A DNA stretch of 64,000 nt from an uncultured OM43 clade bacterium (GCA_902558495.1 CACEEB010000004.1:1-64000); one strand, 5' to 3'; shown: positions 39,244 through 43,953, counted from the first letter of the stretch. The notes: a model not told the origin generated them from the letters alone. Numbers and translations: made by a program.

Positions 39244-40260
39244 TCAATTTGACATACTTTCAATCTTTTGTTGAATTTCTGCCACAGAATGGTGCTTATA
39301 AATATCAATTTTATTTTTAGTATTATCTAATTTCATAGCAGCTAAACGTGCTATTGAATTGGTATCAATATTCCATCGTATATTTGTAAGCGCATAATCT
39401 ACTTCTTTTGGTGAATTACACAACAAAACCATGTCACAGCCGGCATTAAGAGCCATTAATAATCTTTCGACAATATTTTCTTTTTCAAACGTTGCCGCCT
39501 TCATACTCATATCATCGCTGAATATAGCCCCTTTAAATCCTAACTTATCCCTTAATTGATCTTGAAGCCAAAATCGAGACAATCCTGCTGGTAGAGAATC
39601 ACAGGAGGAATAAATGATATGTGAGGGCATTATGCCTTTCATACCATTATTTATGAGAGATATAAAAACTTTTAAATCATTTTCTTTTATATCCAAAAAT
39701 TTTCTTTTATCCTCTCCCTTTTCTATGTGCGTGTCCTCTTTTATAAAACCATGTCCAGGAAAATGTTTTCCAATAGCCTGCATCCCTCCATCTTCCAATC
39801 CTTTTCTGAGGTTATTGGCTAATTTAATAACCGGTGATACTTGTTCATGAAATGCTCGATCACCAATGACTGAACTGGCACCATAATTTACATCCAACAC
39901 AGGGGTAAAGCTAAAATCAATATCGCAACCACCTAATTCCTTAGCGATAAACCATCCCACTAACGAAGCAAAATCCTGAGCCTTTTGTTTGTCTTGATCA
40001 TAGATTTTTCCCAACATAGCCATTGGAGGGAGCGAAGTAAAACCATCCTTAAATCGCTGCACTCTGCCACCCTCATGATCCACCCCAATAAGGATATCTT
40101 TTTTAACGTCCCTTATTTGACTAACTAGTTGTTTTAATTGATTTTTATTCTGATAATTTCGTGCAAATAAGATTACACCACCTACTAATGGATGCTTTAT
40201 TCTTTGCATATCCTTTTTATTTAAATGAAAAGACTCAACATCAATCATCAGGCAAGACAC
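39244..40260 (-). CDS. nagZ: Beta-N-acetylhexosaminidase (GTG start, SD AAGGAG)
   Basis: GH3: GVDHEGGRVQRF, GKHFPGHG, FSDDMSM. Confidence 0.95.
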   Translation of the reverse strand: MSCLMIDVESFHLNKKDMQRIKHPLVGGVILFARNYQNKNQLKQLVSQIRDVKKDILIGVDHEGGRVQRFKDGFTSLPPMAMLGKIYDQDKQKAQDFASLVGWFIAKELGGCDIDFSFTPVLDVNYGASSVIGDRAFHEQVSPVIKLANNLRKGLEDGGMQAIGKHFPGHGFIKEDTHIEKGEDKRKFLDIKENDLKVFISLINNGMKGIMPSHIIYSSCDSLPAGLSRFWLQDQLRDKLGFKGAIFSDDMSMKAATFEKENIVERLLMALNAGCDMVLLCNSPKEVDYALTNIRWNIDTNSIARLAAMKLDNTKNKIDIYKHHSVAEIQQKIESMSN

Positions 40261-40296
40261 ATTGCTTCTCCTTGCATAAAATTTTCTTTTTGACTT

Positions 40297-41100
40297 TTAG
40301 GATGATCTATTTTGGTCACTTTTAATATTCCAATATCCATGCAGATAATCTCCAGCAGCATTAATACAATAAACAATTGACATAATACTAATACCAACAA
40401 AAATTGCATAATGTGGGGATACTAAAAGGTACCGAACACTGTCTCGCATCATTGCCCCCCAAGAAGCTTCAGGTGCCTGTAAACCAAGACCCAAGAAAGA
40501 CAAACTTGCCTCTGCAATGATCAATCCAGCAAGTGCATAGGTTGCTTCAACTAATAAAGGGGTGGTTAAGGACGGTAGGATATGCCTTCCTATAACCCAC
40601 CAACCAGAGGCACCCATAGTTCTTGAAGCTTTAACAAAATCATAATTTTTTACTAATAGGGTTTGACCTCTTGATAGCCTTGCATAACCCACCCAACCCC
40701 CTATAGAAAGGGCTAAAATGAGGTTATATTTTCCAGGGCTGAGCATAGCAGCAAAGGCAATTGCCAATAAAATTCCTGGGAAAGACATAAATAAATTAAT
40801 AACGAATGAAACAGCTTGGTCAAATCTCCCCCCTAAGAAACCCGAGATTGTTCCAATGAGGACTCCAAAAGTACAGGAAATAATACTAACCACTATTATA
40901 ATTTCGGTAGAGTTTTTAAATCCCTCAATCAATCTTATTAAAATAGACCTTCCGTAATCATCACGGCCAAAAAAAGCATCTAGGCTTGGTCGCGATAAAA
41001 TGTCATCCAACTGCATGTAATTAGGATCTAAATTTAAAAGATATGAAATTATGAGTCCCAGTAACCAAAAAAGGATAATAATTAGGGGTAATCTATGCAA
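40297..41100 (-). CDS. Oligo/dipeptide ABC transporter permease (DppC-type)
   Basis: BPD_transp_1 domain; GRDDYGRSILIRLIEG; EASLSFLGLGLQAPEASWGAMM. Confidence 0.95.
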   Translation of the reverse strand: MHRLPLIIILFWLLGLIISYLLNLDPNYMQLDDILSRPSLDAFFGRDDYGRSILIRLIEGFKNSTEIIIVVSIISCTFGVLIGTISGFLGGRFDQAVSFVINLFMSFPGILLAIAFAAMLSPGKYNLILALSIGGWVGYARLSRGQTLLVKNYDFVKASRTMGASGWWVIGRHILPSLTTPLLVEATYALAGLIIAEASLSFLGLGLQAPEASWGAMMRDSVRYLLVSPHYAIFVGISIMSIVYCINAAGDYLHGYWNIKSDQNRSS

Positions 41101-42010
41101 ACTTTCCTACCTTTAATCTTGGATCTACCAATCTATAAATTAAATCTGTAATCATATTAATAAGAATATAAGAAATTGCGATCATAAAAATACATGCCTG
41201 CGTAATAGGATAATCACGGGTTTGAATAGATTCAACCAATAACATCCCCAAACCATTCCAGCTAAAAATGGTTTCTGTAATCACTGCCCCAGATAAAAGC
41301 GAGCCGAATTGCATACCAATAATTGAAATAATAGGAATAAGTACCAAACGAAATGTGTGTTGAATTAAAATAACCCATTCACCAAGCCCTTTAGCTCTAG
41401 CAGTTCTTACTACATCCGACTCGATTAGCTCTAGCATACAATTTCTTGTCAGTTTTGTTATAACGGCTATCATCCCAAGAGCTAACGTAAATGCAGGAAG
41501 AATAATGGCATGGAAGCTATCCATACCATTAACTGGAAACCATCCTAGCCATATGGAAAAAATTATAATTAATACAGGGCCCAAAAAGAAATGTGGTATG
41601 GAGATAAAAAAGATACTTGCACTCATAATTATTTTATCAATTAATAACATGTGATTTTTAGCTGCTATTATGCCCCCAGCTAAGCCAAAAATTAATGCGA
41701 TTAAAAGGGAGGTAACGGCTAATAGATAGGTGTTTTTAGCAGCAATTACTAGTGAATCCAATACCGGGGTTTGCCTAATAATTGAAGTTCCAAAGTCACC
41801 TTGAATAATCTTAATTAATGAGAATATTAATTGATCTAAGATGGGTTTGTCTAAACCTAATTGAGAACGAAGTTTATCTTGATCGGCAAGAGAAGCAGAA
41901 TCACCTAGCATTACCTGTACAGGATCACCAGGAATGAAATGGAGAAGCATAAAAGTGATCGCATAAATACCGAGTATCTGAAAAATTATAAATATAATTT
42001 TATTTAACAT
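41093..42010 (-). CDS. Oligo/dipeptide ABC transporter permease (DppB-type)
   Basis: FIPGDPVQVMLGDSA; RTARAKGLGEWVILIQHTFR; ETIFSWNGLGML. Confidence 0.95.
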   Translation of the reverse strand: MLNKIIFIIFQILGIYAITFMLLHFIPGDPVQVMLGDSASLADQDKLRSQLGLDKPILDQLIFSLIKIIQGDFGTSIIRQTPVLDSLVIAAKNTYLLAVTSLLIALIFGLAGGIIAAKNHMLLIDKIIMSASIFFISIPHFFLGPVLIIIFSIWLGWFPVNGMDSFHAIILPAFTLALGMIAVITKLTRNCMLELIESDVVRTARAKGLGEWVILIQHTFRLVLIPIISIIGMQFGSLLSGAVITETIFSWNGLGMLLVESIQTRDYPITQACIFMIAISYILINMITDLIYRLVDPRLKVGKFA

Positions 42011-42017
42011 TTATTAA

Positions 42018-42500
42018 TTACTCTGCAATCTCAACTTGATCTCCAACGCTAACATTATTAAATAACTCAATAATATCTTCGTTTGCGATTCTTACACACC
42101 CATGTGAAGAGGGTGTGCCCAATAAATGTTCCTCATTCGTTCCGTGAATATAAATAAACCGTTGCATGGAATCCACATCACCCAATCTATTTTTTCCTAA
42201 CTCAGTTCCCGAAAGCCATAAGATTCTTGTTAAAATCCAATCCACATTATCTGAAGCAGAATCTATTTCACGGCTCCAAATTTTATGTGTAAATCTCCTG
42301 CCTTTAAGCACAGCAAATTTAGGCAACTTATCCCCAATTTTTGCCCTGATAATATGGTTTCCAAGCGGGGTTTTGTTACTATCTTTTTTTTGTCCAACAC
42401 CTAAACTTGCAGTCGATATTTTATATTGCTTAATGGTCTTATCATTATGAAAAAGTTTTAGCATCTGCTCTGCAACTGAAATATATATTTTAGTAGTCAT
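42018..42500 (-). CDS. YkuD-family (L,D-transpeptidase fold) protein without signal peptide
   Basis: YkuD catalytic motif IHGTNEEHLLGTPSSHGCVRI; N-terminus MTTKIYISVAEQMLKLFHND is not a signal peptide. Confidence 0.92.
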   Translation of the reverse strand: MTTKIYISVAEQMLKLFHNDKTIKQYKISTASLGVGQKKDSNKTPLGNHIIRAKIGDKLPKFAVLKGRRFTHKIWSREIDSASDNVDWILTRILWLSGTELGKNRLGDVDSMQRFIYIHGTNEEHLLGTPSSHGCVRIANEDIIELFNNVSVGDQVEIAE

Positions 42501-43953
42501 TATGCTTCCTAATATTTTTCAAGCCATCCCAATTACCGTCATTATGAACCTTATAATTAGATATTTGTTTATTATGCGCTGCAATATTTCCTTCATACCA
42601 TAAAGGTAAAAATCCTACCTGATTTTGTATCTCTAGAATTACTGCAGACCAATCATTATTGGTCAAAGATGATTTTAATAAATTATCAATTTTTAATGAT
42701 TTGAAATGTCCTCTGTTAAGTCCTTTGGGTGGAGTAGATTTTGAATGAAAAATTTTATAATAAATATCTGGATTTTTAATACCGACCCAAGTTAAACCGT
42801 ACATTTGAAAGTTTCCATTTTGGATATCCTGAAAATAAGTACCCCAATCTAGAGTTTTAATTGTCAAATTAATGCCAACTTGTGCTAATTGATTCTGAAT
42901 AATTGTTGCAATTTTTAAACGAAATGGATCTGTAGATGTTTTGTAAGTTAAGCTAATCGGCGATAAAGGCGATATGGATTTTATAAGATTTCTAGCTTGC
43001 TCAGGATTAAAGCTGGTATTCACAAGGTTTGCACTAACCCAGTGTTCTGGAGCAAAGAGTTGTTCCGCAAGCCTAGTATTTTCATCCAAAAAATATTGTA
43101 CGAGTTCCTCTCGGTTTATTGCCATAGCAATAGCTTGTCTCAACCTTACATCCTTTAACAAACTATCATTAAAATTAAAGCCTATGTAAGAAATATTTGA
43201 ACCGATAGTGCTTGATATACTTATTGAAGATTGATTTTCTAGAAAATTTATTACCTCAACTGGAAGATCATTCTGCACAATGTCGATTTCTCTCTTTAAT
43301 AATTTTAATGCTCTTACAGTAGGGTCTTTTATTTCAATAAACTCTATAACTTGACCATCGTTAATTCTCTTTAGTCTTATTTTGTTTGATGTAGGGATAT
43401 ATCGAAACATTCCTGAACCCACTGGGTTCATGGAAAAATTATGATTGTTATTAATTAATGTTGAAGGAAGAATAGCTATATTTAATTTTTGGATAAAATT
43501 AATATCAGGCTCTTTTAAAAAAATACTAAATCTTTCATCTGATATTTTGACAAGATTATCAATGTTTTTAAGTTCGACTGCCAAAGGAGACGTTCGATCT
43601 GATATTACATTTTCAAGTGTTGCAATAATATCTTTGATGTTCAGTCTTGATCCATTATGAAAGTATGGTAAGTCCTCCTTAAGCTTAAAAACATATTCTT
43701 TAGGGGATATGATTTGATAGCTCACAATATCAGATTGCATTTTAAAATTACTGTCGTAATAAAATAGGGATGAATATATTAGACTATTCATTTTTTCGGA
43801 GGCAGCATCTGATGCAAATCGTGGGTCCAAGTTCTGAGGTTTTTGAGCAATGCCAAAATGGACTGCTTTATCATTTTGGTTATTTGGACTGCAGGCAGTT
43901 AAAGGAATAAGGAATAGAAATAGAGATAGTAATTTAACTTTCATTAATTTCAA
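42490..43953 (-). CDS. Peptide ABC transporter substrate-binding lipoprotein (SBP_bac_5/DppA-OppA type)
   Basis: Lipobox LTAC; FGIAQKPQNLDPRFASDAASEKMNSLIYSSLFYYD. Confidence 0.93.
   Translation of the reverse strand: MKLMKVKLLSLFLFLIPLTACSPNNQNDKAVHFGIAQKPQNLDPRFASDAASEKMNSLIYSSLFYYDSNFKMQSDIVSYQIISPKEYVFKLKEDLPYFHNGSRLNIKDIIATLENVISDRTSPLAVELKNIDNLVKISDERFSIFLKEPDINFIQKLNIAILPSTLINNNHNFSMNPVGSGMFRYIPTSNKIRLKRINDGQVIEFIEIKDPTVRALKLLKREIDIVQNDLPVEVINFLENQSSISISSTIGSNISYIGFNFNDSLLKDVRLRQAIAMAINREELVQYFLDENTRLAEQLFAPEHWVSANLVNTSFNPEQARNLIKSISPLSPISLTYKTSTDPFRLKIATIIQNQLAQVGINLTIKTLDWGTYFQDIQNGNFQMYGLTWVGIKNPDIYYKIFHSKSTPPKGLNRGHFKSLKIDNLLKSSLTNNDWSAVILEIQNQVGFLPLWYEGNIAAHNKQISNYKVHNDGNWDGLKNIRKHNDY

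Follow-up and report, generated by a model that had tools for sequence, protein, structure and literature searches.

Gram-negative bacteria are usually held to take in cell-wall fragments mainly through AmpG. Other routes and enzymes have been described that bear on the locus analyzed here, and the closest precedent is the Bacillus subtilis dpp-ykf region (dppB-E / ykfA-D), in which a peptide ABC importer lies beside the gene for a cytosolic L,D-carboxypeptidase, YkfA (PMC2954226, PMC3305447), and for which a murein tripeptide specificity of DppBCDE has been reported (PMC10924461). In that system YkfA is an S66 (LdcA-type) enzyme, and YkfB and YkfC break the tripeptide down. In Agrobacterium, the ABC peptide transporter YejBEF-YepA is tied to peptidoglycan recycling through muropeptide import and replaces AmpG (PMC9790009), and in Escherichia coli, MppA provides Opp with a dedicated murein-peptide binding protein, whose ATPases and permeases also work for another system (cited in PMC12136057). 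A further point of reference is ElsL (LdtK) of Acinetobacter baumannii, a signal-less YkuD protein of ~160 aa with a catalytic Cys, for which ElsL activity was described in a genome without LdcA and 101 betaproteobacterial orthologues were counted (PMC8649774).

The five genes considered here lie on the minus strand of contig C4 in a 0.9 Mb, 64% complete assembly of an uncultured OM43 clade bacterium, within a window (the whole stretch of DNA that was analyzed) of 64,000 nt. They encode a binding protein (SBP), a YkuD protein, two permeases and NagZ (Table 1). As in B. subtilis, a peptide importer adjoins a predicted cytosolic L,D-carboxypeptidase, but here the enzyme is a YkuD-type ElsL, the cluster includes NagZ, the genome encodes Mpl and the ATPase genes lie away from the locus; no S66 YkfA-type carboxypeptidase was found in the window's genome or in near-complete family relatives. 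Unlike the Agrobacterium transporter, this one coexists with AmpG and has Dpp/Opp2-like permeases. The SBP differs from E. coli MppA in having its own permeases and in being distant from it (77.6 bits vs ~157 for DppA). With respect to A. baumannii ElsL, the searched text of PMC8649774 mentions no linkage to a peptide importer, and a word search, which covered open-licence papers only and is weak evidence, found no published description of an SBP-YkuD-DppBC-NagZ cluster.

Table 1. Genes of the cluster, with positions counted from the first nucleotide of the window.
Feature	Position	Strand	Basis and remarks
SBP, family-5 lipoprotein	42490..43944	(-)	484 aa from ATG 43944, TTG start possible at 43953; SBP_bac_5 E 2.4e-49; lipobox LTAC; motifs KTSTDxxR, LDWGT, WVGI(K/R)xP
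ElsL-type cytosolic YkuD, predicted L,D-carboxypeptidase	42018..42500	(-)	YkuD E 1e-23; HGT...SSHGCVR, His119 + Cys135
First permease, DppB-like, inner-membrane Dpp/Opp-type	41093..42010	(-)	BPD_transp_1 E 4e-41; Opp2B 310 bits
Second permease, DppC-like, inner-membrane Dpp/Opp-type	40297..41100	(-)	BPD_transp_1 E 2e-25; Opp2C 216 bits
NagZ, cytosolic beta-N-acetylglucosaminidase of peptidoglycan recycling	39244..40260	(-)	NF003740 421.4 bits

Searches against Pfam and NCBIfam (SBP_bac_5, YkuD, BPD_transp_1 twice and Glyco_hydro_3/NagZ) bore out the gene identities given in an earlier, sequence-only reading of this DNA, and the spacings given there (-11, +7, -8 and +36 nt) are exact. NagZ scores above its curated NCBIfam cut-off (207 bits), and the top curated models for the permeases, Opp2B and Opp2C, are matched below theirs (350 and 300 bits), so the names 'DppB' and 'DppC' are loose. 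The near fusion of the genes, presented in that reading as a feature of the cluster, is real but not special to it, as 37 of the 49 same-strand neighbour pairs across the whole window are ≤40 nt apart (median gap 10 nt), and the tight same-strand run extends upstream of the cluster to rlmD, cysM and dsbB. Compactness was therefore rejected as evidence; the cluster stands above chance because its gene order is conserved in relatives, and on that ground the five genes are a real, conserved operon.

Save for a few generically labelled entries, the relatives of the SBP in a collection of named genomes belong to the Methylophilaceae, a family of methylotrophs, and include HTCC2181 (60% identity), Methylotenera, Methylovorus, Methylobacillus and Methylophilus. 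This identifies the window as OM43-like Methylophilaceae DNA, from a tiny marine bacterium that lives on methanol. DppB adjoins YkuD in all 29 of the relatives' YkuD loci in this family, with the SBP in nearly all of them, and the longer stretches have the order SBP-YkuD-DppB-DppC-(YhhQ)-NagZ-Bax1. Gene order is strongly conserved in these relatives. Viewed from the SBP, 80 loci of the named collection were sampled, 12 of them without YkuD; three of these 12 end within 0.8 kb, and YkuD is downstream on the same strand in 68 of the 77 informative loci. In the other nine, which have enough flank (L134, L137, L189 and six others), the SBP is apart from YkuD-DppBC. One genome (G033) has a separate SBP with YkuD-DppB-DppC-NagZ still together, and Candidatus Methylopumilus is among the members of the family whose SBP is beside rlmD yet apart from YkuD-DppBC.

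A class-wide sample of 60 loci, drawn from the best YkuD matches and not at random, ruled out that the cluster is an invention peculiar to the Methylophilaceae. YkuD-DppB-DppC was found in 26 of these loci, spread over 16 families besides Methylophilaceae; in 19, the complete set of SBP, DppB, DppC and NagZ is beside YkuD, and in seven, DppB-DppC is accompanied by SBP, NagZ or neither. Another 20 loci have NagZ alone downstream of YkuD, without permeases, and six have the SBP but no permeases. The linkage of importer and ElsL is thus common, not obligatory, and the recurrence of the set in many families suggests a second, little-noticed route for returning cell-wall fragments. In the other families examined from the same order, YkuD mostly adjoins tadA, outside the cluster. 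With regard to the history of the cluster, a tree of YkuD built from 87 rows and 158 columns leaves half of its forks unresolved and places the OM43 rows on long branches.

Several local arrangements were also seen in these loci. In four of them (L221, L234, L239, L242) the SBP directly precedes YkuD with no permeases nearby, as if it used the permeases of another system. An ElsL-type ykuD gene is directly beside tadA in six loci (L044, L045, L047, L051, L229, L253), which come from other families of the order and from a single family of the class outside that order. In addition, a CYTH-domain-like protein (named by eye from its MAxEIERKFL start; ~160 aa), absent in the window, is encoded directly upstream of the SBP in class-level clusters (L205, L207 and L214).

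The YkuD protein (160 aa used, from a whole open frame of 166 aa; a single YkuD domain) had been read as a signal-less, ElsL-like enzyme acting in place of LdcA, and the sequence analysis supports that proposal. The 166-aa frame leaves no room for a missed signal peptide, and the protein has the features that characterize the ElsL class, namely a YkuD domain with Cys and His, no signal peptide or transmembrane segment, a length within 105-200 aa and no peptidoglycan-binding domain (PMC8649774). It matches NF040925 (LD_carbox_ElsL) at 144.8 bits (E 1.9e-42), below the exception-level cut-off of 270 bits, so it is ElsL-type and not the Acinetobacter exception itself. The HGT and GC(V/I)R motifs and the catalytic residues are invariant among 20 relatives, and the structure model has the YkuD fold (pLDDT 90). 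By homology, then, this protein is a putative ElsL-type cytosolic L,D-carboxypeptidase.

LdcA (PF02016) was not found in the window's genome (64% complete) or in near-complete Methylophilaceae relatives. Among 24 relatives from the order, YkuD is present in none of the seven genomes with LdcA vs 14 of the 17 others (p 3e-4), and class-wide a strong ElsL-type match (E below 1e-30) is present in 2/27 LdcA genomes vs 204/249 others (p 7e-15, a value that overstates independence, as the genomes are related). This near-exclusion would fit functional replacement of one enzyme by the other. Both are encoded by two genomes (G103, G213) and neither by three relatives from the order (G040, G052, G057).

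The remainder of the recycling pathway was located in the same genome, G000, with AmpG at C5:14586 (486 bits vs a cut-off of 350), an AmpD-like amidase at C2:12587 and Mpl at C11:3769 (619 bits), so that of the genes sought there, ampG, an AmpD-like gene and Mpl were found and ldcA was not. With NagZ and ElsL, these make up a complete AmpG-NagZ-AmpD-ElsL-Mpl route with or without the importer. AmpG was present in 60 of the 61 relatives searched, which rules out the importer as a replacement for AmpG in Methylophilaceae and means that it adds to AmpG. The sequence-only reading named an intact ldcA plus ampG with no synteny as refuting; the genome has ampG without ldcA, and the synteny of the cluster is strong, so that this combination does not occur. 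The same reading had coupled uptake, L,D-carboxypeptidase and glucosaminidase in a single transcript. With intact AmpG, AmpD and Mpl, however, ElsL and NagZ also serve the ordinary AmpG route, and the cargo of the importer need not be their substrate.

No transporter ATPase is encoded at the five-gene locus, and the expectation that one is supplied from elsewhere was confirmed by a dppD-dppF pair on contig C9 of the same genome (G000:C9:37335-38977; L054:7336-8978), between hisS and yfgM-bamB-der. The pair occupies the same place (hisS/yfgM) in 11 genomes of the family and three more. The parts of a Dpp/Opp-type importer are therefore all at hand, with an SBP and two permeases at the locus and Opp-type ATPases in the genome, and the C9 pair is probably the one that the cluster uses. 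In complete genomes of the genus, dppD and dppF are the only oligo_HPY ATPases found, and each genome has two SBPs. The second set in Methylophilaceae, gloB-mltD-SBP2-DppB2-DppC2-fabI, is also without an ATPase (L106:4496-9285, L107:4647-9520, L108, L112), so the simplest reading is that one ATPase pair serves two membrane sets. The SBP2-DppB2-DppC2 set was not found in the window's incomplete genome.

The gene mltD in this second set encodes a lytic transglycosylase. Outside Methylophilaceae, a Yej-like operon (SBP-YejB-YejE-fused-ATPase) is often next to mltD or fabI (L110, L111, L299, L302); it adjoins both genes in L111 and mltD in L299, and is possibly another peptidoglycan-linked importer. 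Cluster-bearing genomes such as G276, G109 and G129 have no oligo_HPY ATPase gene besides the Yej-like one, and in another (G333) permeases are present with zero oligo_HPY matches, a search that would miss ATPases lacking the oligo_HPY tail.

The lipobox Cys of the SBP is kept in 103 of 107 homologues. By profile comparison the protein is nearest to 5u4o, AppA, DppA and GsiB (150-175 bits for the last three) and further from NikA (110 bits), DppE (8ay0) and MppA (3o9p). DppA holds the ends of a dipeptide through R383 and D436, and an R383D+D436R double mutant fails to bind (PMC12136057); in the alignment, Thr336 and Ile389 of this SBP take their places, the former present in 106/107 homologues and the latter position I, V or L in 107/107. 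The view of this SBP as a murein-peptide binder thus found no backing in its nearest relatives, which are DppA, AppA and GsiB more than MppA or DppE, nor in the DppA-type charged anchors, which are missing. The motifs around the anchor positions (KTSTDxxR, LDWGT and WVGI(K/R)xP) are near-invariant across the 107 homologues, from Methylophilaceae and 26 class-level sequences, and SBP2 has AppA-like residues at those ligand motif positions. Together with the missing anchors, this constancy suggests one narrow ligand that would be something other than a simple dipeptide, such as a stem peptide or a muropeptide with a blocked N terminus. An AlphaFold model of the SBP has a mean pLDDT of 70, with low-confidence stretches near the C-terminal motifs.

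Taken with the conserved neighbourhood, on which the identity of the cargo is based, we consider that the cluster is probably a conserved cell-wall-recycling operon whose importer carries a peptidoglycan fragment. In the periplasm, the lipoprotein SBP would capture a peptide derived from peptidoglycan and belonging to a narrow class, and the two Dpp/Opp-type permeases would carry it inward, driven by DppD-DppF, probably shared with the second importer. In the cytosol, the ElsL-type YkuD may trim the terminal D-Ala, converting tetra- to tripeptide, and NagZ may take GlcNAc off sugar-bearing fragments, here mainly those imported by AmpG, with Mpl returning the tripeptide to synthesis; the activities of both cluster enzymes are predicted from homology. 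A broader proposal, which we advance more tentatively, is that the SBP stands for a distinct family of binding proteins that is specific for peptidoglycan and widespread in Gammaproteobacteria (betas included). Together with the permeases encoded beside it and an ATPase that also serves the mltD-side importer, it would form an ABC route parallel to AmpG that feeds ElsL and NagZ directly. If true, this would point to a second door beside AmpG, affecting recycling and possibly beta-lactam tolerance.

Against a peptidoglycan cargo stand the presence of AmpG, as a second importer is then not required, the closer resemblance of the SBP to DppA, AppA and GsiB than to MppA or DppE, and the loci in which SBP, ElsL and permeases are not together. 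ElsL and NagZ might have a recycling role that serves AmpG only, with an importer for ordinary oligopeptides or some other nutrient that is their neighbour by history. The breadth of the SBP_bac_5 family would agree with this, as would the ElsL-NagZ pairs that occur without an importer and the position of ElsL beside tadA in other families. We regard this explanation as unlikely, however, given that the SBP-ElsL-DppBC order is kept in 16 families plus Methylophilaceae, that ElsL is inside the transporter genes and not beside them, that the SBP motifs are almost invariant, unlike those of a broad nutrient binder, and that Methylophilaceae with streamlined genomes of 1.3 Mb have kept the importer. 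An importer of nickel, metallophores or other non-peptide solutes is very improbable, since the matches that point this way (permeases scoring best against Opp2B/Opp2C and NikC, and Opp5A/NikA as the top NCBIfam match of an SBP devoid of DppA peptide-terminus anchors) are all under curated cut-offs, the SBP profile is closer to DppA, AppA and GsiB than to NikA, and no metal genes were seen in the conserved neighbourhood.

The peptidoglycan-fragment reading concerns a gene set that extends to organisms amenable to culture, as the same cluster is present in culturable Methylophilus methylotrophus and Methylobacillus (L187, L192).
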